In this document: piece after piece, positions 1,053 through 63,533 of the stretch
Layout: the number at the start of each line of letters is the position of its first letter
How positions within the stretch are numbered: the first letter of the stretch is position 1
Translations under genes and position numbers: made by a program
Source of the DNA: Capsaspora owczarzaki ATCC 30864
Taxonomy: Eukaryota; Opisthokonta; Filasterea
Length of the DNA stretch: 64,000 nucleotides
Direction of reading: 5' to 3'
Assembly (NCBI RefSeq): GCF_000151315.2
Contig: NW_011887305.1
Location: 533,399-597,398 of the forward strand
The notes under the pieces: model-generated
Told to the model about the DNA's origin: nothing
Databases searched by the model: none
The model's input: the letters and a program-made list of their open reading frames with translations, nothing else

Positions 1053-1328
1053 TATTGTTTGTATTGCAAAGCTCAAAAAGAGTGACAAGCGCTCTGGCTT
1101 TGGATCTGGATTCATGTGTCAGCAGCAGCTGCATTCATGTTGAATGCCGACCTCTGAGTGCAGCGTTCTTCTTTGACGATATGCGTCTTAGCGTCTGCTC
1201 AGATAATTTTGTTTCACTTTTTCCCTTCAATTTTTGTTTCAACTTTCCAACAGAGTTTTTCAAACTCCCTCCTTCTCACCATCACTTCTCCTTTTTTGTT
1301 CTTTTTGAATTCCCCTACGTTTCCTTCT

Positions 1329-3689
1329 ATGAATGTCTGGACGACTGAGGAAGGCGGCGTGATGCACAATGTTGGTCCATTGCTGCCGCCACTCAATCTG
1401 CCAGACCAACCAGCGACGACCGAGGGGTTGTCCAGTCGACGACTCCTCGTGAATACGTCCATCACGACTACCACTACTGATACTGATACTGCCGATACTA
1501 CCGATACTGCCGATGCTGACGATACTGCTGCAGCGCCGCGCGGAATCGACGCCCTGCCAAACGAACTCTTCCTGACAATCTTTGCCTACCTCGACGCAGT
1601 GACCTTGTTCAGCTGCAGCCAAGTCTGCTCGCGTTGGCGCGGTCTCATGTCGTCGGCCGTCATGCTGCGCTCGATGGACCTCTCGCGGGACTTTGGCTCG
1701 GTGGCCTTGCTGACCCTCGTCGAATCGGCTGCTCCTGCTGCTGCAGACCTCCTTGCGTCATCAGCACTGCAGAGCGCCCCGTCGGATGCCGCCACCACTC
1801 GACTGGCAGCTGCGGCTGCCAATAGTACTAGCAATGCCTCGAATGCACCGAGCCATGACAGGGCAGCAGCAGGCACGGCACGCAGCCCCAAATTTCGCAT
1901 CGCCTGGCGAAACTCGACCCGTTTGACACCGTTACCAGATCTCACCGGTCAAGTCGCCACAACTATTGCGCAGACTGTGGAAGCAGACTCGACACTGGCA
2001 AATAAGACCCCTGAGACTGCTACTGACGCTTTACCGCGGGATGCACACGATGAAGAACCACCCATCAAGATTGTACTCGCAAGACGATCTTCCAGTTCCC
2101 TGCCGTCGCAGTCGGGTTCGTCGACAGCGGTGCCTCCTGTTGAAGGCGTGCGCAATTCTACTGCTGCTGCTGCTGTCCCCACTGCTACCACTGCTGCTAC
2201 TGCTGCTACTGCTGCTACTGCTGCTACGGCCCTTGTGGAGATGGCTCGCGCGCCTGAACTTTCCTCAAAACTCGCATCCATGCTCCTGGAAGCGGCTGCT
2301 GCGACGTCCTCGACGGCCATTTCGTCCGCTGCTCCTTCCTCTTCTAGCCTTGCCGTTATTGATGCTGCTTCAGGACCCTCAGCCAGGGTACCGTTGCACC
2401 ACCGACCAGAGGGCGACATTGTCACCCAGCTATCTCGCTGGCTACTGCGGAGACACCTGCGACTCTTCTCCTCCCACCTGCGGTACCTTGACTTTTCGCA
2501 TTCGCCGGCTTTCATCTCAGAGTCCGTTCTCTGTGCATCGCTGAGTGTCGCTACCGGGCTAGTGTCGCTGAACGTGCAAGGATGCACCATCACCAATCGA
2601 ACCCTGTTTTGCTTGCCGCCTTCGTTGACACACCTGGACATTTCGTACTGCATGGGAATATCCGCCGCTGGAATCAACCACATTGCCCATGCGTGTCCCC
2701 AATTGCGCGTGCTCAAGTGCAAGCACGTGAGTGAGATGCAGGACTTTTCCCTGACCCACCTCGCCCTGTCTGGCCTTCGACTTTCGCATCTGGATCTTGA
2801 AGGATGTGGCCAAATCACCAATGCTGGACTCAGCGCCTTGCTCGTCGCGAGCGGTGGTGATCTCATTGATTTGTCGTTGCGGGCCTGCGATGGACTCGAT
2901 GGGAGCGCCGCTCGCGCAGTGGCTCAGAACTGTCCCTTGCTCAAACGCATCGACTTGTCCTACTTGCCGCTGGTTGACTACGACGTGACTGTTCTGGCTT
3001 GCTCATGCCCTCGTTTGACCAGCGTTCGGCTCTGGCGCTGCAACCAGCTAACGGATCTCGCCGTGACCGACCTTGCCAACTTTTGCCCCTCCATCACCGA
3101 ACTCGATTTGATGCACTGCAACAGAGGATTGATCAATCCGAGCATTCACCGGTTTCCAAAGCTTCGCAAGCTCGTTCTGTATGGCTGTTCGTCGGTGACT
3201 CCCGCCACCCTCGCTCTGTGCCTCGCAATGCCTGGGTTGGAAAACATCAATCTTGCCCATACGGCTGTCGATGACGACGCAATCGAGCAAGCAGCGCAAG
3301 TGATCAAGCAACAGTCCCACACTGACCAGGCAGACGAGAGTGTGTCAACGGTTGGCTCTGGCCAGTCGCTGCATTCGCTCACTCTGACAGACACAACGGT
3401 CGGAGATCGTGGCATTGCCGCATTGGTGCAATTTGCACACAAACTGCAAGTGCTCGTTCTCCGACGGAGCCCAGTCACGGATGCGTCTACAACGCTTCTT
3501 GCCTCTGGCTTTCCGCTTTTGCGCCAACTGTTCTTGAACGATTGCCGTGGCATCACCGATGAGTTTGCCAATCGATGGCCATCCGGCAGCCCCGTGCGCG
3601 AGCTCCACACCCGGGGCACGAACCTGAGCAAGCGCGGTGTTGCGTTGTTGTCCCATCACGCACAAGATGACAGATTGGAATTGAGTTGA
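1329..3689 (+). CDS. F-box and leucine-rich-repeat protein (FBXL type)
   Basis: Single exon, 786 residues from the ATG at 1329. The frame is open further upstream, but that stretch is T/C-rich and reads like 5' leader, so I chose 1329. An F-box lies at about residues 72-115 (LPNELFLTIFAYLDAV then SQVCSRWRGL). A long Ala/Ser/Thr-rich linker follows, including an ACTGCT-type repeat near 2160-2225. About ten cysteine-containing LRRs run from about residue 380 to the end (for example LTHLDISYC, LSHLDLEGC, LTSVRLWRC). F-box proteins of this layout are substrate receptors of SCF (Skp1-Cullin-F-box) ubiquitin ligases: the F-box binds Skp1 and the LRRs bind the target. The target cannot be read from sequence. 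It is convergent with PYROXD1, with about 100 bp between stop codons. Confidence 0.85.
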   Translation: MNVWTTEEGGVMHNVGPLLPPLNLPDQPATTEGLSSRRLLVNTSITTTTTDTDTADTTDTADADDTAAAPRGIDALPNELFLTIFAYLDAVTLFSCSQVCSRWRGLMSSAVMLRSMDLSRDFGSVALLTLVESAAPAAADLLASSALQSAPSDAATTRLAAAAANSTSNASNAPSHDRAAAGTARSPKFRIAWRNSTRLTPLPDLTGQVATTIAQTVEADSTLANKTPETATDALPRDAHDEEPPIKIVLARRSSSSLPSQSGSSTAVPPVEGVRNSTAAAAVPTATTAATAATAATAATALVEMARAPELSSKLASMLLEAAAATSSTAISSAAPSSSSLAVIDAASGPSARVPLHHRPEGDIVTQLSRWLLRRHLRLFSSHLRYLDFSHSPAFISESVLCASLSVATGLVSLNVQGCTITNRTLFCLPPSLTHLDISYCMGISAAGINHIAHACPQLRVLKCKHVSEMQDFSLTHLALSGLRLSHLDLEGCGQITNAGLSALLVASGGDLIDLSLRACDGLDGSAARAVAQNCPLLKRIDLSYLPLVDYDVTVLACSCPRLTSVRLWRCNQLTDLAVTDLANFCPSITELDLMHCNRGLINPSIHRFPKLRKLVLYGCSSVTPATLALCLAMPGLENINLAHTAVDDDAIEQAAQVIKQQSHTDQADESVSTVGSGQSLHSLTLTDTTVGDRGIAALVQFAHKLQVLVLRRSPVTDASTTLLASGFPLLRQLFLNDCRGITDEFANRWPSGSPVRELHTRGTNLSKRGVALLSHHAQDDRLELS

Positions 3690-23396: not shown

Positions 23397-26300
23397 TTAG
23401 AACAGCGAGTCCTTGTTCTGCACCAGCACGAGCACAAGCTCGGCTTGCTGCGGGAGCTTGGACTGGTCCAACAGATCGGCTCCACGCAAAATCAGCGGCC
23501 CAAAGATGTTAGCCAGCGTTTGCAGAGCATTTTGCGGAGACTCGATGCTCGCCGAAAGACTGGCAAAGCAGCAGAACAAAAACAACATGCATAGAGGCAA
23601 GTCAGAGTCTGCCCATGCTCACACAACGTAAACAGCAGATTAAAGTTGAACACTTACACGGCACAATGCTGGACGCAACGCTTGAGCGCTGCGATATGCT
23701 CAGCAGGGAGTTTTGAAATCAGTCCCGACAAAGCAGCCACGCGATCAGAGGTACGACCTAACAACAAACAAATTCCCCCTCCCCAGAAAAGTCAGTCAAA
23801 AGCACGAGACAGAACATAAACCTCAGCACCATTCAGCACGCCAACGTACGCGCAGCATCGTAGAAAGACGACTGGAAGGCAAGCGGAATCACGGCGTCGG
23901 GCAGCTTCTGCAAGAAGCGGCGAAGCAGCCAGCAAACAGCATTAATGTCCGCGGTGCTCAGCGTTGTTTGAAGCAGCGCTGCAAGTAGTAGGATTCAAGC
24001 GAGTCGGTCAGCCATCAAAATCCAAAAATCAATCGCACGAATCGCAAGATGCAAAGTTGCTGGCCTCACCAGGCTGGAATCCGTTCTTGGTCACTTCATC
24101 CTTGAGCAGAGTGTTGGCAGTTGGAGCAGCTGCAACTTTGTGCACACTCTCACGGCCGAGCGCTACATGGAACAGACAACACATGCATCGGAAGAACCAG
24201 TTAGAATCAGTAGCGTGTCTTGCATTCGACTGTAACATAAAAAGGTACATACCGCGAATCTCAATCTGGGTGGCAGCGAGATCAAGGAAACGAGAGAGCG
24301 GGACTCGCTCGGCCTTTGCAATGTCCTTGAGCGACATCTCCAAGTAGGAAGCGGCGGGCACTACATCGGGAAAAAAATAAACAGCAACGAGGTCAACATC
24401 ATGCATCAAAATTAGCTGCAAAGCAACAAACACTTAAACGGATCCCTACGTGGCGCAGCGTTCAGGCCTTTAGGAAGGGAAGGTTTGGGTGGTGCAACAG
24501 TGGAGATGGTTTGTCGAAGCGGCTCCTGTGTCACGACCAAATCGAACAAACCATTGTCAGGCCCGACAAACCTATCAAACTATTTTTTTGTTTCGTTGCA
24601 ACGCAGAGCGAACGATACGTACGGGTTGACTGTCAAAGTCACCGTCTTTCATCTTCTCCAGTTGTGTGATGGCATCCTTGCTGCCATTGTCACGCGCGCG
24701 TTCAAACCATGAGCGTGCAGTTGGAACATCACGAGCCACGCCGTCGCCATGAAGGTAAAACCAGCCCAAACAGAATTGGGCATGGCCATCGTTCTGCTCG
24801 GCACTTCGCGAGTACCTGTGGAAGGAAGTACAAATACCCAAACCAGTGAGCACGGTTTGCACACACAAACAAACGCACACACACAAAAACACAAAAAACC
24901 ATGTTGTTCACACTCACCACTTGATCGCTTGTGCCACATCCCGCTTAATCACATTGCCGTTGGCATAGTACCAGCCAAGATTTCGCTGCGCACGACTGCT
25001 GTTGCCAACCTCGGCAGCTCGCAAAAACCACTTGACGGCCGCTTGGTGATCGACAGGGACGCCCCAAGTGCCGTCACGGTAGACAGCACCGAGTTTGACC
25101 ATGGACTCGACGTCGTTGTTGAGAGCGGCAGCTTGATACCACTCGAGACAAGTGGTGACATCGGCGGCGGGGTGCTGCGAGTCTGGCGAATAGTACCATG
25201 CCAGGAATGTCTGTGCTGTGAGTTCGTTCTGCGCAGCCGCGCGGAAGTACCACTTGAGCGCCTGCTCCTTGTTGACTGCAGTGCCATGTCCTTCGTACAG
25301 GCACCAGCCGAGGTTGCGCTGGGCGCGCGCATGTCCGCGCAGCGCAGCGTTTTCATAGCACTTGAAGGCGTGCGCCATTGACTTTTCCACACCAACACCA
25401 TCACGGTAGCAAGCGCCGAGCCAGCACAAGCCCTCCAAGGAATCGTGTTTGACGGACTCGATGAACATTCGGAACGCAGCGGGTTGATCGCGCGGGAAGC
25501 CAAAGCTTCCGTCCATGTGGCACTGCGCAATGCGCGAGATTGAATCTCCGTGGTTTTGTGCACGCGCGGCAGTGTAGTACTCCAAAGCACGGGCGGGGTC
25601 CTTGGTGACGCCGCACAGGCCCAGCTCGTGGCACTGACCAAGCTCATACAGGGCGCCCGCATCGCCGAGCTCGGCGCCCTCGCTAAAGAGGCGCAGCGCC
25701 TCAGCCACATTCTCCTTGACGCCTGTGCCAGTCTTGTAGCAATGGCCAACCCAGCGCAAGCTCGACATGTTTCCGGCGCGAGCAGCGCGGAAAAAGTAGC
25801 GGAATGCATTGTTTCCGTTCGCAGGCATGTCGATGCCATGCAGGTTGCGCATGGCCAGCTCATACAAGGCAATGGGGTGGTTGCCGTCGCGGGCTGCTCG
25901 CTTGAGCCAGTTCAGTGACTCGGTCAGGTTTTTGGTCGCGCCACCCGAGCCAGTCAAGTGGCGAAGCGCCATTTGGTACTGGGCCTCGGGATCGTTGTCC
26001 TCTGCCAAGTCCTGCAAGTGTGCAAGGTTTGCGTCGAGGTAGAGCTTTGGAACAGTGTGAGGGGCAGCCTCGCCCAGGACCAACGTCTCTGGAATCGGAG
26101 GAGAGACGTTTGGCGCGGGTGTGGCTCCGCGAGGCGTAGGTGCCAACGCGGCCGAGGCACCCGCTGCCATCGATACCGGTTGCTGGCCAGGCTTGTTGGC
26201 AGTCGGGCGCGAGGGAGCAGCCAAGGGCGCCTCAATCAGCATGGAAGGCGACCTCGGCGCAGCTGGTTCCGCGAGTTTCTGGACGGCTGGGACGCGGACA

Positions 26301-29137
26301 CCAGGACCAGGAGAAGCCGGCAGTGGCCCATTGGGCACGGCAGAGCTCAAACGTGATGCGAGCGCAGCAGGCTTGGCAGGCACCGGAGGCAGGGCAGCGC
26401 TGTCCGGCAAGCTGGCAGCCAGCTCGTAAATGGCAGCCTCCTTCTCGTTGGGCAGCGTCGCTGCGGGCCGGTTGGGCAGCAGCATCACCTTCTTCCTGGG
26501 TGCAGTGGCGGGCCCTTGTCCTCCAGTGGTCTGCGCCGCCTTTTGTTGCTGCTGCTGCTGCTGGGGCTGTTGAGCTGCTGCAGGATTCAAATTGGACCGC
26601 GGAGGAAGCGCTGGTGATTGCTGCTGTTGTTGTTGCTGATGCGGTGTGGGCCCAACAAAGTTTCGCTCGAACGCGACCTGTGCGCTTTGCACCGAAGGCA
26701 GCGCGTCCAGGATTTCGTAACCACCAGAGTCGCGGGACGCAATCTTGCGCTCCGAGGCGCGCAGGCTGAGCTGATGGCGGGAAAGGGGTGCCGCCTGGTC
26801 TTGACGGTAGGCATCAAAGCGTTGAGGCAAGGGTTCGGGGTGGATGGAATCGCCCTTCTTGTTGATTTCCTGGCAGTACTCGACGCTTGCAAGCTTGGTC
26901 TCGAGCTGCGTGAGCTCGCCGACAAGCTCGGAAAACTTGGGGCGCTTGGAAGGGTTGACATCGCAGCAGCGCTCAATCAGCTCCTTGAACTTTGGCGGGC
27001 AGTTCTGAATGTGGGGCTCGACCGTGATGGCCACGCCAGACTTTTTCAGGCGCGTAATCTCCATGATGGCCGTTTCCTGGTCGGGAACGACCTGCATGGT
27101 GGCCAAGTCGCAGAAGAGCAAATCACGGTGCACGACTTCCCAGATGATGCAGCCGAATGCATAAACGTCGCAGGCCTCGTTGACCGGGGCGTTGCTGGCA
27201 AACCACTCGCCAGCCGAGCGGCTTTGGGAAACCAGCAGCTCTGGGGCGGCGTACAGGACGCGGCCGAGCGCAGCATTGATCATGCCGAGGTCACGCTGGT
27301 GCTGCAGCTTGTCATTGGCTGCCGAGGCCTTGTTTGACGCGCTGCCCGCACCGGGGCCGGGGCTCGTGGGAGCCTGCTGACGGAAGCGCGACAGGCCAAA
27401 GTCCGACACTTTGACGTGCAAGTCCTGGTCGAGGAGCAGGTTGGAGGTCTTGAGATCGTTGTGGATGATTGGCGGAGAGTGCTTGTACAGCGCGGCCATG
27501 CCGAGAGCAGCCTCCTTGATGAAGCGGGCTCGGAGCTTCCACGGCACGTCGAGAATGTTGTCGCGTTGGGTGACCATGTAATCATACAGGCTGCCTCCGG
27601 CGCAGTTTTCCATAATCAAGCAGCGGTTGCCCTTCTCTGCGCAGACAGCGTACAGCATGACAACGTTCTTGTGGGAGAGACGCTCCATCACCGAGACTTC
27701 ATGCTCAAACTCTTGCAGAGCAAGCTTCATGCCCTCGCGGCGCTGCCGTGCCTCCTCCGAGTCGTCGTCGGCCTCAACAAAGCCCGCATTGTGGCCGGCA
27801 CCAGCGCCACCACCTGCGCCGAGCTGGTGGTTGAGATGGTTTGCGCGGTGGATGAGATCCTTGATGGCGAGCTTCATGCCCGCGTCGCCGGAAGGGATGC
27901 CGGGCGAATTGAGCATCTTGACGGCGACTTCGTCGCCTTGCCAGATGGCGCGCCAGACGGAGGCGTAGCCGCCTGCGCCGAGCGGCTTTGGGTCGGGGAA
28001 ATCGAGCTCAAAGAAGGGGACGCGCGGGCATCGCAGGACGGTCTGCTGCTGGCTGCTCTTGCCCTGCTTGTTGCCAGCATGGTAGAAGCTGCTTGGAGCG
28101 GACGGCGGGGCGGACGTGAGACTGCTGCTGCCGTTCGACGAGGACGACGAGGACGACGAGGACTGAGGCGAGCCCTTGAGATGGCGATCAAACATTGCGA
28201 CGAGCGAGCGCAGCAGATTCGCGTGCAGCGCGGGTGCAGTCTTTGGCTGGAGCTGCAGCAGCATGTACTGGACAATGTCGGTGAGCATGAACTTGAGTGC
28301 AGTGACGTCCGCCGCGTCGTCGTCGTCAAAGTGAAGCCCGCAGAAGAGCATTGCGCGCTGACCCCGCAGCCCGGCGTTCGCCAGCTCGTCCGGCGACTTT
28401 TGCGCAATGTTGGTTGCAGCAGCAATGGTAGCCGCCGCCGCTGCAGCCGGGGACAGCGAGGACCCATTGTTGTTGTTGGTGTTGTTGTTGTTGTTGGGCT
28501 TTTGGTTTGCTGCTGGGCTTCGCTGCTGGGTGAGGACGGTCGCGTTGCCATAGAGCGCGTCCGCGGCGGCGGGCTTGGTGCTGCTAGTTGCTGCAGCAAT
28601 CATGGAGATGGAGCCCGTGGCCGCGAGCGCAATGGCCTGCTGCTGGATCTCCTGCGGCAAGAGCGCGGTGACTGTTTGGGAACATTCGAGGAACTGTGTC
28701 CGCATTGCGCCCTCACGGAACGCGACTGCCTTCCACGCGTCCTGCGGCAACGGCTGCGGTGGTGGTGGTGCTTGTTGCTGCTGATGCTGCTGGTGCTGCT
28801 GCTTTGGAAGTGGCGCCGCCGAGGAGAGGAGCGCAAGCAGAACGCGGCAGCCCGCAAACGCATTGACGAAATCCTGCTGGGTGCCAAACCGGGAAAGCAG
28901 CGAGCCAGATCTCTGCTGCTGCTGGGGGTTGCGTGTCTGAAGCTGCTGCTGCTGCTGCTGCTGCTGTTGCTGTTGCTGTTGAGGGAGGTTGGCGCGCTCG
29001 AGCTCGTCGAGGACGGCGCTGGCGAGGGCGACCAGGCGCGCTGCCTTGACGTTGGCAAATTGAGCGGCGGAGGCGAGCGAACGGAGCTCGGCAAGCGCCT
29101 GCCGCAGCGACCCGGTGTCGGTCGCAGGAACGTCCAT
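23397..29137 (-). CDS. MLKL-like helical bundle + TKL-type kinase + Sel1 repeats + RhoGAP protein
   Basis: Eight exons: 24918-29137, 24623-24815, 24450-24525, 24253-24360, 24070-24162, 23850-23978, 23658-23757 and 23397-23559, giving 1,693 residues with agreeing phases. Residues 1-200 look like an MLKL/HeLo-type helical bundle (ANVKAARLVALASAVLDEL, FVNAFAGCRVLLALL), interrupted by a Gln tract. The kinase domain is at about 378-720: glycine loop LGAGGYASVW, VAVKML (about 407), IIHNDLKTSN in place of HRD (about 561, catalytic Asp kept), VSDFGLSR (about 580) and YAAPELL (about 629). A Pro/Gln-rich linker follows. About 11 or 12 Sel1 repeats lie at 1030-1480 (such as AQYQMALRHLTG and AQRNLGWCLYEGHG). 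The last 200 residues form a RhoGAP/p85-BH-like domain (LLRRFLQKLPDAVIP, LANIFGPLILR). A signalling role is inferred; the combination is not one I recognise. Confidence 0.85.
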
Positions 29138-30199
29138 CGTTGGATTGTTTGGATTGTTTGGATTGTTGGATGTTTGATGTTGGATGGATGTTGGATGCCA
29201 AAAATTGAAATGTGTGGAAAGCTGAAAGAAAAAAAAAAAAAAAAAACAAGCAAAATGTGTGTGAAAAGAAGATTTGAAAAAAACTAGAAAAAAGAAAAAA
29301 AAAAAAAACACAAAAACAGAAAAAAAGACAAAGAAAAGGAGAAAAAAAAAAAGTGGGTTTGATTTGTTTTTGGATTTTGGAAAAGAAAAAGAAGAAGAAA
29401 AGAAAGAAGAAGAAAAGGAAGAAAGAAAGAAAAAACAATCGAAAGTGAGTTCAAAACGAAAGAAAGAAAAAGGAAAAAAAAAAAACACAAAGAAAAGGAC
29501 GAAACTTTGAAGAAAGATCAAAAAAAGAGAAAAGGAAACAAAAAAGACGAAAATCGCCAAAATTGGGAGCCACGCAGCAAGAAACGCACACACCCTGCGA
29601 ATTTGCGAACTGGATCAACAAGACGGATGGACGGTGAAGAGGGAGAAACAAGGACGCTATGAGAGGAGAGGAGAGAGAGAGAGAGTATGATGGGGAAATC
29701 CCGCGAACGAACGAACGAACGGAAGCAAACAAGTCCTTGTGGCGCGACGTTTGTGCTCCCAAAAAAGGGACTCTGATGGATGACGCACTCCCGACCAAAA
29801 GCCGACCAGAGCTACACGGTCAATTCGGGAGGCAGGGGGGAGCGGTGGGGGGAAAAGGGGTTTGACAGAACAGAACTGACAAGGTTTAGCTTCTCAGAAA
29901 AACCAAAGAGATGAAATGCGCAGAATTCCAACAGCAACTCAACGCGCTTACCAACACCCATCAAAAGTGCATGCATCGAAACGCGCCGTTTCGTCTGAAT
30001 CTGAGGCAACGAAGCAACGAGCCGGTTCTCTTTTCAAACAAGCGGTCTTGTTTCTCAGACACCGAGTATTTTTCATTTGTTCCTCATCCAACCTCCACTA
30101 TTGCCATTTATTATTTACTACTACAGTATCAATGCAACATGCTCACTCTCTTCTCTCTCAGCTTTTCAGACTTTTTTTTTTTCCATTTGTGTTTCAAGC
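29138..30199. promoter_or_regulatory. Divergent 5' region of the kinase and PSMD5 genes
   Basis: About 1 kb without a supported gene. Bases 29222-29500 are almost pure A/G on the plus strand (T/C on the kinase strand), with A runs near 29228-29246, 29297-29308 and 29342-29352. An 11-bp ggattgttt-type repeat lies at 29141-29168 just before the kinase ATG. A T run of about 10 precedes the PSMD5 ATG. Confidence 0.55.
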
Positions 30200-55827: not shown

Positions 55828-58800
55828 TCAGGCCCACAACGAAATCATGCCACTGTCCGCACCAAACAGCAGCTGCTGGTTGACGGGCAGCATTGCAAAA
55901 CTGTTGACTGTGCCTCGGATTGCATCGCTGCGCAGCTTGTGAGAGGTGAACGAGGGTTGCTAACAGGATTAGAGAGGGTTAGGATGGGGGTTGGTGGAGG
56001 TTGATGAGTGCAAGGTGACAAGGGAAAAAACAATCAAGAAAATGCAAAATCTTTACCGTTCTATCCAGCGCGCCGTGGAAGCCAAGACGGTTGGAGGCTG
56101 TGAGTGCCAGCACATCGCGCTTTGAGATTTCAAAATGCGTGACTGCATCCGTGTGGCCTGCAAGGAGCCATCGCTTTCAAGTGAGCCTTCCCCCAAAAGA
56201 AAACTCGGAGACAAAGAACCAACAGCTCTCTCGTACCGCGCATAAACTTGACCGGGACAGCAGTATGTACATTCCAGAGGGTGAGAGTGGAATCTGCAGA
56301 GCTCGACACGAGCTGGTGCTCGGACACTGGCTTCATGGAGAGGACATCCGATTCGTGAGCGCGCCAAGCAGCCAACATCAAGCCCGTGCGCAAATCGAGC
56401 AGCGAGATGATGCCCCCAGAAAATCCGGTGGCAATCCAGTTGTAGCCCGGATCGACAGCAATCGAGCGAATGGAGCCTGCGACAGTGAGAAGGGGTTTTG
56501 ACGCAAGTGAGAAATTCCTTGAGACAAAACCAAATCCAGAACCAATGAAGAATCTTACCAGCTGGCATAGTCGCCACCTTCCACTCGTGCAACAGTTGAT
56601 TGCTCTCGAGATCAAGGAATCTACAAGAGTCGCCCATCATGTGAGGGAGCAAATCCAAAAACAGCCAATTCCTTCATCGTCTCGTTTCCCTACTACCTTA
56701 GCGTGTTGTCCGAGGTTCCAGCCACAAGGCAGCTGCGTTGCGGGATTTGCTGGAAGCACACAATAGAGCTCTTTGGAAGGTCAAATTGTTGAGTGCAATA
56801 TCCGTTCTCGGGATTCCAAATCTAACGCAATCAAAGGTGTGTGAGTTCAACATCTGGTTGACAAGGCTCAACCAAGCTTCGTGACGTACATGAATTCCTC
56901 CATCGCACGAGGCGACAAAGTCGGTGGATGTCATAATTTGTACGGACGAAACGGTCTTGCGATGACCGACATAAGTTCGACGACACTTGGCGACTGGCAA
57001 CGAGTCTTCCTCCATACCGATGGACCATAACTTGACAGTCTTGTCCTTGCTGCCACTCACAAACTGCTGCTCGTTATCAAACACCGCGAGCGAGCGAACA
57101 GCAGCAGTGTGTCCTGCAATCAAGCACAGTCCCAACCAGCACGTTCACGCCAACGTGAATTGCCATGCCATGACCAGCAAATGAACATGAAACCAGCAAA
57201 TGAACTGCAACAGTACCCGCAAAGCTTTGCAACTTGAGCTCTCGGAATGACAAGGAGGCGTTGCGAGATTGAGGATCTGCCCAAACCCAGAAACAGTCAA
57301 CAACAGCAACAACAAAACAACTACAACTACAACAACACACTTTGCCTCTCCGCCTCCGAATCAAACATCCCGCAATTCAAAACACCACAAAAAAACTTCT
57401 CACTCATTTGATGGGTCAGGTAGGTTCCCCAGTTGGCATATGTGGTCTGGATCTCCTCGGCGCTGGGATCGTCGCCGTCCTTCTTGGAGCCGAGAGTCAG
57501 CAGATTGGAGAACTTGGCTCGCATCGAGTCGTTGGCGGACTGCGGGGGCATCGGGGCAGCGGCAGCGGCAGAGACCGCAGCTGCAATGGCGGCAGAGATG
57601 GCACTGGCAGAGACGACCGAGCCTGGGCCTTGCTCGGCGTTGCCATCCATTTCGTTGCCCGAATGCGAAAAGGACGCAAGATGCGAGTACATGAGCGTCT
57701 CGATGAGTTGCGAGTTGGCAATGTAGCGACGCATTGATTCTTGGCCAACAAGCAGACAGAACTGAGAATACGCCAGGTAGGCCGTCTCCGCCGTGTAGAC
57801 CTGACGCCACTCTTCGAGATCGGACTCGCCATTGGGCGCAGCAGAAGCACGCTGGGCCGCAATGAACGACGCTGATGTGAGCGCGTCGGAAGCAGACGAT
57901 GTCCTGGGATGACCAGTGGTATCTTCCAGGGTCCTGTCATAAATCCAGTCGAACGGAGCAAAGAACACGCGAAGAATGGGCAGAGCAAAGTCTTTCATGA
58001 TGGGCATTGCATCGGCACACTTGCGCGACAAAAGCCGGCAAACGTAAATCATCGACTCGAGCATCTGACGGCACATGCGGCTGCGCAGGGCTCCGGAGAA
58101 GGCGGCGCTTGATGGCGATCCGAGCCAACGAATCAACGGCATAAACACCTTGGAGGAGAAGTCGTCCATCTGCTCGGCCAGCGTGTCACTATTGAGGTGC
58201 TCACAGCAGCCTTGCAGCAGGTTGAGCACATTCACAATGGTTTGAGCACTGCGGTCGGCCATCGAGGTTGGAGACGCAACGTCGGCAATGGTCGCGTTGG
58301 CTGCCGCAAGCGCAGAGCCCAAGGACATTTCCACAAGCGAGGACGTCGAGGAGACGCCGGAGACGTTGCCGGCTTCGTTGCCAAGGGATGCTGTTGCCGC
58401 TGCGGTAGGACTCGGCGCAGCGATGGTGGCAGCTTTAGTCAGTTGCGCTGCGAGCGTGGAAATAATGTGCGGAATGTACTGCCCGAGGACGACCGTTTCA
58501 CCACCAGTCGCAGAGATGGAGAGAAGGCACTTGATGACAATGTTGGCGTTGGGGCGGGTGAGATGCCGCAGCAAGGGCTTGGTCATAAAGCGAGACGGAA
58601 TAACCGGGCCGAGCTGCGCAGCCAGATCAACCAGACCGTCACCAGCAGCCTTGGCGATGGCAATGTTGGCAGAAACCACGCCATCGATCAAAAAGCCGAC
58701 GAAATGCTCCATGAAAAAGGACAGACCAATTCTGTTGAGAAGCGACAGCACAAAGCGCTTTGACAAGATGACAACTTGAACCGCCTCGTCCGCCGTCAGC

Positions 58801-61800
58801 TCAAACAGAGCGAGTAGTGGCTTCAAAAAGACGACTCGAGTGCGACGCGGACCGAGTTTGGCGGTGACATGGTCGAAAAGCAGGACAGCGGCCTGCTGCC
58901 GCGTCAAGGGATGCGAAAAGAGCTGCATGATGAAGGGCATGGCGATCTGGAAGCCATCGTCGGCCAGCTTGACCAATGTCGTAATGTGCTCAGCGGTGAA
59001 GGTGACGCGGGTCGGCCAGTCGCTGGCCTGGAACTCTGCCAGGAAAGAGTACAGCGCGGGAAAGTAGTCTGGGAACAAGAACGACCCACCGGGTAAGAAG
59101 GACGTTTGCAACAGCAGGTCGGTCGGAGGCGTGATGGAGGAATCGTTGCGCAACAGCAGCGCAACCGCTTGACGAACAGTGCTGGGCAACTCGTTGAGGT
59201 AGGGCAGGTACAGCGAGGCAGGACCCTGCGATCCCATCATCATGGAAGCTGCAGCACTGCTCGTGGCACCCGGGAGCGAGCCAGCAGCAGTGCCGCTGCT
59301 CGTGTTGGCTGTGGCAGACAGGGTGGACGAGGCAGCTGCTTGAGCTGACGCAGCAGCCGTCGCGAACGCAGTGGCACCTTTGCCAGACGGCATGCCCGAC
59401 ACGCTGGTATTGAACGCGGCCGAGAATCCACCGCCCATGGACATGGATGCAATTTGGTTGCTGGTGGCATTGACGCTCGAGCTGCCCGCAGAGCTCGACA
59501 TGCCAACCAGCGATGGTGCGAGCAACCCGGCCGAGGACGGCGCAGCAACGAGCTTGGTGGAGACGGCGTGTCTCTGGGCTGCGAGACGCTGGCGAACAGC
59601 AGTCTGATCCGAGTTGGCGGCACTGCCCTCTGCCGAGCCGATCGGCTGGGTGAGCGACTGCGGCACTGCACTGTTGAATACCACTTCGTTCAGCAGCATG
59701 ACGCTGTTTCTGGCCGCGAGATTCACCTGCGAGATGAAGGACGTGGTGCCCGGGGCGGTGGGAATGGTATGCCGCACAGGGAATGGAGAGAACGAAGGCA
59801 GGGCAGTGTCGAAGGGCGAGATGGTTGCTGCATTGCTCAGATTGTTTGCGCGCTGCTTGGAGGCTGGGGCAGTCACGCCGAGCACAGGGTCAAGCTCTGA
59901 GAGGGCGTCGACAGTGGCAGACGTTCGGAGCCGAGAGGGTCCCGTTGCCTCCAGAATACCGCGAGCGTGGTACCGATCAGCAAGGTACAGCTCGCACACG
60001 ATGCAAGCCAATCGGTAAAGATCAAAGGAGCGACGCTCCTCAAACGAGCACGGGATGGAGTCTGCACCGATGGCTGAGAGTAAAGCGGCAGTTTGCATGG
60101 AGGGCAGAATGTTACCGTCCAGCTGCTCCAACGGTTGAAGTGGAGCCACCAGTTGGCCGGCGTGGTCACTGGAAATGAGCTGGGCCAACGAGGTGGAGGC
60201 GCCTTCGAGCAGACTGCCGCCCTCGCTCGCACCAGCGCCCAGAGTGCCGGTGACCACGGCTGAACCAGCCTGTTGGCCATGCAGCTGCGAGAGTTGTTCC
60301 ATGATTGCGCGATTGGCAAGGGAGACGAGCGAGCTGGACTCGAGCAAGTGGGTGACGATGGTGGCGGAAGTGCCCTGCAGAGACGACGCAAACGCCCTCG
60401 ACTGCTCGAAAAGCAGCAAAGGTCCGATATGACCCGCTTGATCTGGATCCTCGGCCAGAGAAATGCGAGGGAGCTGCTGAGTCAGAGGCTGTTGCGGGAC
60501 TCCTTGCTGACTCGACGCCGAGACAGCCGCCAGCCCGCTGCCGCTGGATCCTCCCGCAGACAAGCCGGCGGCACCGCTCGCCATTTGCCAGCCGGGATAG
60601 TTCGAGGGCATCGACGTAGGAGGTGAAGGTGGAGCGGCGGCCGATGCAGCCGCAGTCAAGGCGGCCAGAGCGTTGGACGAGGTCGCTGTTCCATCGGTCG
60701 CTGTGGCACCACCTGCATACCCATCAGCTCCACCGGATACGTTGGGCGAATTGGTAGACGCTGTTGCACTGGCAGAACTGAGCGCCGCTGCAGCAGAGGC
60801 ACTCGCCGCTTGTATGTCAAGCGGCGTTGGCGATGCCAGCATTTGTGACCGGGTGTTTGGTTGAGGCAAGGGTGACGAAGGCAGCGCCGGATTGGAGGGT
60901 GGCTGCTGGAGGGTGGAGGAGGCACCGACTGCTGCTGCTGCTGCTGGCATTGCGAGTGTGGTGGTGGTGTTGGTGGTCGTGGTCGGTTGGACTGGATTCG
61001 AGGGGTTGACGGCACCCAACGAAGCAGCGGTAGACGATGAAGCGACTGCACTTCCAAGAGATGCAGCGTTTTGGTGCTGCTGGGGCGCGACAAAGTTGTC
61101 CTTGATAATCCGCGGAGGATGCGGATGGCCAAACAACTGCACCACTCCGTGAGAGGCCAGGTACTTGTGCTGATCCACCAATGGGAGGAAGACGTTCTTG
61201 GCCTTGACGGCACCGCGGCCAGTCAATTTCCAGCCGAACGTGAGGTCAATCCAGTGGTGGAGGAGTCCACTGACGGCATCGCTTTCAGAGCACGCATGTG
61301 TTTGTCGACAAAGTCGCGCCCAGAGACGGCCCAGTGCGGGACCTCAATGTCCGGCATGTCCGAGTGGATGGACTGGAAAATGTCTGGGTCGGTGAAAAAC
61401 TCGGGAATGCACTCGTCCGGTGTCCAGTCGTACATGCGTTGCATGCTGGACGGATACTCGTTTGGCTCGTAGTTGGACCGTACATAGCGGCAGAGGAGCG
61501 CTCGCGGCGTGCGCCGCGCCAGGTACACAAAGTACGTGACCTCCGACAAGAGCTCGCTAATGTGGTGAGGAGTGGCCGAGTCCCAGGTGATGTCGAGTTG
61601 CTGGTCACCCTTGTTGAGCCGGAACTTGGTCTTGGTCAAGTTTCGCCATCCCCCGTTGGAGCGAGAAAAGTCAATCACCCAGGGAAGGACTGGATGGTAA
61701 TTGGGATCGCCGCGGCGACGGCCTGCAAGGTGGTTGAGCGCCATGAGATATTCAAAGTTGGAAATGCTGCCGCGAGTCCAGTGATCAATCAGCCATGGCA

Positions 61801-63533
61801 AGTCCATGAGCGTGGGCGCACGCGGGATGGACGGCGAGAAAGGAACGAGGTTGAACATGAGTCGGGGTCGCGCCGCCGTGACAGACAGCAACGACGCTTG
61901 GTTGACCCACGGCGAGCAGCTGGTAAAGCCAGTGACACGAACCCACAAGTGCTCGGAAATCAGGCAGTTGGAGGACGTGAGTTGACCGTGCGTGATGCCA
62001 TTGCGATGGCAGAAGGCGAGCACTTGCAGGATTTGGTAAATGACAAACAAGCTTTTGGCGTGCGATGCAGACAAGGCGTACGGACTGAATGTAACAATAT
62101 CGCTCAGTGTTTTGGGCTCGAACGGATACAAGATGTAATACGCGCGCGCCGTCTCCACGACAGCCAATGCCGAGGCGAGGTTGGGATGGTTGGAGGATCG
62201 GAGGGCAGCCGCCAAGTCTGCATCGAAAAAGTTATCGACCACGTCCGAACAAGGACCCGGCGTAGCAGTCGCGCCAGGTGTACCACTGCTCGCTGAAGAT
62301 GATACGGCGGGGGAGGTTGGTGTTGTCGTCGTGGTTGCCGGCGCTCCGAATGCGCTCTCAAACTGTGCCGCTTTCGACAGCAGGTTTTTTGCAGGGCTTC
62401 GATGGGTGGGGCCGCTGCTGCCGTCGGACGAAACGACGGCAATGTTGGGTTGGAGTGTGGTGAGTAGGTTCATGAGCGCGCGGTCCTGTTGGCGAGAGGC
62501 AGATGAGGAGAAAAAGGAAAACGACAAAATACAAAATAAGGCGAAGATTGGCTTCAGGCATGGCAATGTCCACAACACACAAACAACACACATGTGTAAC
62601 ACGTACCTGATCGCCAATGACGGTGGCGCCACTGCTTGGCACCCATGCTTCGCCCGGGTCGGCCGAATCCGAGGCACCAACAATGTTGCGCAGCTTTGAT
62701 TGCTCCGCCTCATCGCTCAGATGACTCAAGTAGTTTCCTAGAGACACGAGCGCGTCTGATCCAATCTGGTGCACGGTCTGTCCATGCTGAGATGGAGTGT
62801 CACTGATCGGGTCCCCAGAATTGGCAGTCGCGTTCGCCTGAGCGAGCTCTGTAAAGACCTTCGGCCTGTGCCATTGCGTGCGTACAATAGCGATGATGCG
62901 CAATCATGACAAAAACGCAATCCCCAGTCAGCTACTTGCTCGCGACACTCCGATCATGATGGAGCGTCAAAGCATTGTTGACTTTACCTTCGGCCACTGT
63001 GGACGCCTTTGAGAACCACCTTGACGGCGACCTGCACATACGAGTTTTCTGGATGGGCATTCGAACGCTCAGCCAGCAATCGCAGCTGGGCCGTGAGTGC
63101 CGCGGACGGCGAGATTCCCATCGGCAAGCCGGCCTCTTCGGTTGAGAGTGATAGCGGGGGGTGCGCTGGCGGGATGGCACGATCCAGCGCCACCGATCGC
63201 AGCCACGCCTGATCGACCTGTGTGTTTTGTGGTGGTGTGGGGTGTGTCAATGTCATTGTGGGGAAGCGTCCGCCAGAGCCCAGTCGAACATTGAATCGAT
63301 GCGAATTCAGGAGAGAACGGGGTCATCATTGTCCATCATCAGACCAACTCGTGAGATTCAAGCACACCAAAAGCAAAAGGCAGCATCACCCAAGAGGACA
63401 GAGCACAGGCCGTTACCACGCAGCAGGCATGGGTGCCGTGATCGCCAGGCTCGAACAGCGGCCGGGTCGCGCGCGGCTGAAGCTCGGCGTCAATCAGCTC
63501 GGACAGCGCTGGAAACGAGAGCCGCTGTCCCAT
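55828..63533 (-). CDS. WDR81: WDR81, BEACH and WD40 endosomal protein (frame break inside)
   Basis: Eleven exons: 63417-63533, 62988-63217, 62607-62865, 57404-62485, 57217-57276, 56890-57113, 56697-56821, 56559-56620, 56237-56476, 56057-56157 and 55828-55959; about 2,210 residues if the frame break is ignored. The N-terminus ([15 protein letters not shown]) leads to a kinase-like region ([34 protein letters not shown]) with no HRD. The BEACH domain follows ([58 protein letters not shown]). Then come [27 protein letters not shown], a long Ala/Ser region, a helical part and C-terminal WD40 blades. WDR81 works with WDR91 to dampen PI3P synthesis on endosomes and in autophagy. At about 61286 one base is missing: HMRAL is followed by [15 protein letters not shown] in another frame. 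Exon 4 length and flanking phases agree with a one-base loss. Confidence 0.92.

Follow-up and report, generated by a model that had tools for sequence, protein, structure and literature searches.

The question raised by the gene that runs from 29137 to 23397 on the minus strand of the DNA analysed here, a 64,000-nucleotide stretch of the Capsaspora owczarzaki ATCC 30864 genome (contig NW_011887305.1; the window), is whether it encodes an MLKL-like protein of cell death, as an earlier note on this DNA had suggested, or a signalling kinase of another kind. In a single open gene model it has, in order, a polyglutamine-rich N-terminal region, a TKL-like kinase domain, a long Sel1 repeat array and a C-terminal RhoGAP domain; the kinase residues are retained, and the residues on which GTPase-activating protein (GAP) activity depends are replaced. 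Our preferred reading, which is tentative (a probability of roughly 0.45), is that it is one multidomain signalling kinase, in which a TKL-like kinase on a Sel1 scaffold is joined to a RhoGAP domain that has no GAP activity and binds a Rho-type GTPase.

Under this reading the Sel1 solenoid would hold the kinase, which is probably active, and bind partner proteins, and the C-terminal RhoGAP fold would bind a Rho-type GTPase but would not turn it off; the bound GTPase might then position the protein within the cell, or might recruit or switch the kinase. Kinase activity, GTPase binding by the RhoGAP fold and the direction of control between them are what we infer from the sequence features set out below.

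Kinase, Sel1 array and RhoGAP domain

The kinase domain (residues 380-746, limits set by eye; 26900..28000, minus strand) contains the motifs VAVK, FEHEV, HND, KTSN, DFG and APE, and matches Pfam PF00069 with an E value of 4.5e-39 (best stretch 471-739) and PF07714 with one of 2.6e-36. It carries inserts ahead of helix C and within the activation loop, and its N-lobe was placed by alignment. Among the best 60 of 727 PDB matches the top kinases are MLT/ZAK and CTR1 (8e-27), followed by RIPK3 and RAF, with a JAK-type chain in the best six; the closest PDB kinases listed are mostly of the TKL group, in agreement with the TKL-like core proposed in the earlier note. The VAVK lysine, the helix C glutamate, the catalytic aspartate, the asparagine and the DFG motif are all retained in the alignment, and the HRD arginine is replaced by asparagine; the reading of this motif as HND with its catalytic aspartate kept, made earlier, holds in both translation and alignment. 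The kinase is probably active. The HND motif, together with the replaced GAP residues of the RhoGAP domain (below), would also suit a scaffold in which both kinase and GAP are catalytically dead and which works through binding alone, and other kinases of the genome (searched as 27.46 Mb in 29 contigs) are likewise altered at this motif, to HRN, HLN or HLG; with all of the catalytic residues just named in place, however, we consider a wholly inactive scaffold somewhat unlikely.

The placement and subfamily of this kinase are poorly resolved in both trees that were built. The first, which included 10 of 12 loci, the window kinase and the three MLKL_N kinases described below, put it next to the CAMK-like outgroups with a support of 92; the second, of 25 sequences (loci L058, L062, L065, L067 and L068 were omitted, and L077 yielded no usable frame), put it with the same outgroups with a support of only 61. 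We note that kinases of the HRDLAARN type are present at four loci of the genome.

A low-complexity Pro- and Gln-rich linker (residues about 747-1046; 26000..26899, minus strand) separates the kinase from the Sel1 array. The part of the array encoded by exon 1 begins at residue 1047 (24918..25999, minus strand) and matches PF08238 in 8 stretches with an E value of 1.9e-61, and an extra stretch in the exon 2 part scores 31.6 bits, over the cut-off of 30.7, so that the assignment to the Sel1 repeats is supported by the profile. By eye there are 11 full units and a partial cap; the long array claimed earlier is thus real, and the count of about 12 was near the mark.

The spliced C-terminal part matches the RhoGAP profile PF00620 with 60.6 bits (cut-off 24.5), which confirms by profile the RhoGAP fold that the earlier note had seen in it. 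A six-frame search of the genome with the same profile gave 44 matches, among which the window gene is not listed; its RhoGAP domain is spread over five exons. In the PDB its phmmer matches include ARHGAP15, beta2-chimaerin and RacGAP1, with E values from 4e-8 to 1e-6, and its best match in the genome besides itself is 25% identical (E 5e-10). We compared its functional residues with those of the eight best-scoring of the 44 genome matches, a sample that, being the top scorers, is biased toward canonical RhoGAPs. The arginine finger, an Arg in 8/8 of these, is a Lys here (residue 1541); in the next conserved helix a Lys and an Arg, both kept in 8/8, have become Arg and Gln; and the Asn ahead of the FGP motif, also kept in 8/8, is a Thr. 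We take the latter Lys, Arg and Asn positions to be Lys122, Arg126 and Asn194 of p50RhoGAP, and it is from work on that protein that the catalytic and switch-binding roles of these residues and of the finger arginine are known. 

The RhoGAP domain is probably dead as a GAP, to judge from these residues; with its catalytic residues lost, it more probably serves to bind than to act as a GAP. The idea put forward in the earlier note, that the domain ties the kinase to small-GTPase control, is still plausible in this form, but an active GAP is unlikely to be the means of it. An active RhoGAP, directed by the attached kinase and dampening Rho signalling, would fit the complete fold with its FGP motif, and is rather improbable with 4/4 catalytic or switch-binding positions replaced.

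Gene structure and the Sel1-RhoGAP join

The gene model comprises eight GT-AG-joined exons on the minus strand, with an ATG start codon at 29137 and a stop codon at 23397, which together form a single frame of 1,693 amino acids whose only stop is the terminal one. Exon 1 (29137-24918) encodes the N-terminus, a linker, the kinase, the second linker and most of the Sel1 repeats, and exon 2 (24815-24623), whose codon score is highest in the predicted frame, encodes the last full repeat and the cap. Exon 3 (24525-24450) is a short in-frame proline-rich linker, for which an alternative donor (exon end at 24432) also preserves the frame and gives a product of 1,699 amino acids. The RhoGAP domain starts in exon 4 (24360-24253), from about 24304, as judged from the profile match on the joined exons. 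It continues through exon 5 (24162-24070), where alignments with the genome RhoGAPs and beta2-chimaerin place the lysine at the arginine-finger position at 24137-24139; exon 6 (23978-23850), where the altered helix reads LLRRFLQKLP; and exon 7 (23757-23658), which is supported by frame and Pfam. It ends in exon 8 (23559-23397), which contains TLANIFGPLILR, with the Asn to Thr change, and the stop codon. The earlier note had spoken of six short in-phase exons; such exons do exist, but there are seven after exon 1, and the first of these still belongs to the Sel1 array. Introns 1 to 7 are 102, 97, 89, 90, 91, 92 and 98 bases long. Directly upstream of the gene start the coding strand carries a long T-rich tract (window 29277-29485), and T-rich stretches, which read as runs of F in frame, also lie upstream of the starts of the genes at loci L054, L056 and L069.

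Introns 1 and 4-7 are supported by homology, because the RhoGAP match covers exons 4-8 and the Sel1 array continues from exon 1 into exon 2, whereas introns 2 and 3, which link the Sel1 array to the RhoGAP domain, lie outside every recognised domain. Two adjacent genes could thus have been misjoined here, one for a protein with the N-terminus, kinase and Sel1 array and the other for a separate small RhoGAP-like protein, and exon 4 has an in-frame ATG (MSLKDIAK...) just before the RhoGAP domain at which such a separate gene might start. The linking introns, however, have typical GT-AG ends and typical sizes (97 and 89 bases, versus 90-102 for the five domain-backed introns), and the gap between the read-through stop (24575) and the exon 4 ATG is only about 240 bases.

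Codon usage bears on the same point. Codon frequencies were trained on eight other open reading frames of the genome and scored against a background of the other five introns and the gene flanks, from which introns 2 and 3 were held out. The predicted frame has the best score in 7/7 short exons; in exon 3 it reaches 0.59 bits per codon, where the other two frames have 0.28 and 0.12, and this exon so looks coding in the joining frame, while introns 2 and 3 score negative, as noncoding DNA, in all three frames (the other five introns are also negative, but this is partly circular, as they are included in the background). We regard two misjoined genes as unlikely. The fusion of Sel1 array and RhoGAP domain in one protein is likely, its joins being predicted from DNA evidence, namely the reading frame, the size of the introns and the codon usage; the domain scores and the coding potential across the joins support the earlier proposal that one protein carries kinase, Sel1 array and RhoGAP domain.

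The N-terminus and the MLKL_N kinases of the genome

The N-terminal region (residues 1-183; 28589..29137, minus strand) is interrupted by polyglutamine, is predicted at low confidence to be helical and belongs to no family that we could name; the N-, S-, A- and Q-rich linker that follows it (residues about 184-379; 28001..28588, minus strand) has further predicted helices. The earlier note had seen in this region the pattern of the MLKL/HeLo four-helix bundle, and from it had drawn a tie to necroptosis-type cell death. Pfam, which includes both MLKL_N and HeLo and was the only means by which HeLo was examined, gave for residues 1-385 nothing except a chance match to PsaL (E 0.26); a copy edited by hand to remove the Q-rich stretches, together with a 70-residue piece, gave only HhH-GPD (0.2) and PAC_bac (0.21), neither of which reached its cut-off; NCBIfam gave nothing above its curated cut-off. 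A phmmer search of the PDB with the first 183 residues returned five matches with E values of 0.17 or worse, the top three of them on polyglutamine.

A search of the genome with MLKL_N (PF22215) found three genes above the cut-off of 27 bits, with domain scores of 45-70 bits, and the window gene is not among them. In a leave-one-out control with hhalign any two of these domains detect the third with probabilities of 98.7, 91.2 and 98.2%, whereas the window N-terminus is matched to the three with a probability of 0.12%; its score is 11.34 for residues 1-185 and 10.84 with the Q-rich stretches removed, and 200 shuffles of the Q-stripped sequence have a mean score of 11.35 and a maximum of 17.08. 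Residues 251-345 gave 0.29% in the same comparison, and hmmsearch with its filters off gave the N-terminus at most 2.8 bits against MLKL_N. Single-sequence AlphaFold2 models place helices at residues 8-24, 30-49, 56-66, 87-106, 133-159 and 162-173, with a mean pLDDT (predicted local distance difference test score) of 47.8 for residues 1-183 and 41.8 for residues 1-345, both too low for naming a fold. Foldseek with the low-pLDDT N-terminal model found nothing at an E value of 0.001 or below and six matches at 5-10. On sequence comparison we regard the MLKL/HeLo identity of the N-terminus as unsupported, and with it the tie to necroptosis; models of such low confidence speak neither for nor against a four-helix bundle. 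The region is probably helical according to these models, and might possibly serve in oligomerisation.

Paralogues of the N-terminus were also sought in the genome. The nine matches besides itself (E 0.001-0.6) were taken as due to chance or composition, and three of them, in loci L044, L045 and L050, were examined: the match on contig C1 lies inside a 1,234-amino-acid frame with no kinase motif (one strand), and at the loci on contigs C3 and C17 no listed frame of at least 150 amino acids has a kinase motif (one strand each).

The three MLKL_N kinase genes differ among themselves. That on contig C5 (L054, from 370249 on) encodes MLKL_N, kinase, TPR and SH3 domains and keeps HRD; that on C1 (L055, from 3390793 on) encodes MLKL_N and a kinase with HLN for HRD, and has neither TPR nor SH3; and that on C6 (L056, from 1395124 on) encodes MLKL_N, a kinase with HRN for HRD and TPR repeats, and its linker has numerous YQ(N/A) motifs. 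Like the window protein they have an N-terminal helical region, then a TKL-like kinase and then, in two of the three, a helical repeat solenoid; they differ in having MLKL_N itself, and TPR (2/3) and SH3 (1/3) rather than Sel1 repeats and a RhoGAP domain.

Because two MLKL_N-kinase-TPR proteins of the same genome likewise have a helical region, then a kinase, then a solenoid, a very diverged bundle is conceivable, and with it an MLKL-like executioner whose four-helix bundle is freed by the kinase under control of the Sel1 array and RhoGAP domain, so that the cell is killed or permeabilised. Apart from its own locus, the window kinase finds its best match in the genome in the C5 MLKL_N kinase (76 bits, versus 62 for the next), and Sel1 repeats occur in some fungal homologues of the MLKL family (see below). 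When the C5 kinase is the query, however, the window kinase is only 81st of 115 rows, a rank depressed by the inserts that split it; in the second tree the MLKL_N kinases cluster with a support of 87 and leave outside the window kinase, whose own placement has a support of only 61; and profile, hhalign and structural comparisons, the last with a model of low pLDDT, all fail to link the N-terminus to MLKL_N. We consider such an executioner very improbable. More doubtful still is a GTPase-gated version of it, in which a diverged bundle split by polyglutamine would be released once a Rho GTPase is sensed by the RhoGAP domain, itself dead as a GAP; if true, this would be a kinase of cell death gated by a GTPase, perhaps in a single-celled organism related to animals. 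For the origin of MLKL-type proteins the three MLKL_N kinases are likely to matter more than the window gene does, and the age of such proteins is better addressed through them.

Several points weigh against the multidomain signalling kinase that we prefer, besides the bias of the RhoGAP sample, the exon 4 ATG and the C5 kinase match already given. The change of HRD to HND may reduce or abolish kinase activity; GTPase binding by the RhoGAP domain is read from its fold; the splicing of all exons into one mRNA is predicted from DNA; the alternative exon 3 donor at 24432 would shrink intron 3 to 71 bases; and the layout is known from this one gene.

Other kinase loci touch on the same families. 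The gene at L041 (1398-4109, minus strand) has Sel1 repeats, a kinase with HLG for HRD, which is probably a pseudokinase by its sequence, and by eye a RING-like C-terminus; it was considered as a sister of the window gene and rejected, as its Sel1 repeats precede the kinase and its tree position differs. Related kinases with HLDLK for HRDLK are found at L057, L058, L060, L061, L063 and L066, probably within a larger expansion, and the first four of these also have a RING-like C-terminus by eye. Elsewhere in the window, a kinase and a BEACH domain lie in two adjoining overlapping frames (57330-62716, minus strand) that are probably one intron-bearing kinase-BEACH gene, and 1158-3686 (plus strand) encodes an F-box and leucine-rich-repeat protein.

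Comparison with known systems

The earlier note knew of no described protein with this domain order, and none with the order kinase, Sel1, RhoGAP was found among the literature matches listed either (titles and abstract openings, with thin coverage of subscription journals). No literature that combines Capsaspora, Sel1, RhoGAP and kinase was found, and a paper that matched MLKL and Capsaspora has Capsaspora only in its reference list. Sel1 repeats, RhoGAP and a protein kinase domain together led to a single paper, on an Entamoeba genome. 

Parts of the arrangement have parallels. The BH domain of the p85 subunit of PI3-kinase, which mainly binds, shares the RhoGAP fold with the window protein, but its phmmer matches are weak (E 0.004-0.08) and it is outscored by ARHGAP15, chimaerin and RacGAP1. 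BCR, like the window protein, has kinase-like activity and a RhoGAP domain in one protein, and differs in its DH-PH and C2 domains, its atypical kinase and its lack of Sel1 repeats. ROCO kinases, for their part, belong to the TKL group.

Two ROCO kinases and one STE kinase of Dictyostelium carry a RhoGAP domain according to passages of PMC1420674, and so, as in the window protein, have kinase and RhoGAP in one chain (PMC1420674, PMC6320773, in part); the ROCO proteins differ in having Roc-COR (the passage in PMC6320773), and the word Sel1 is nowhere in the main text of PMC1420674 on the Dictyostelium kinases (PMC6320773 was not searched for it). The Phytophthora MAP4K PITG_11253 has its RhoGAP domain at the C-terminus, as does the window protein, according to a passage of PMC3019232; it differs in that its kinase is of the STE group, and Sel1 is nowhere in that paper's main text. 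On the MLKL side, fungal HeLo-MLKL links are treated in part of a review (PMC12881547), and Glomeromycotina homologues of the MLKL family (TCDB 1.A.105) bear Sel1 repeats, as the window protein does, in a passage of PMC8778642 that does not mention RhoGAP, a word not searched for in that paper. By joining its kinase to a Sel1 scaffold and a catalytically degenerate RhoGAP domain in one chain, the window protein would be a compact link between phosphorylation and the state of a small GTPase.

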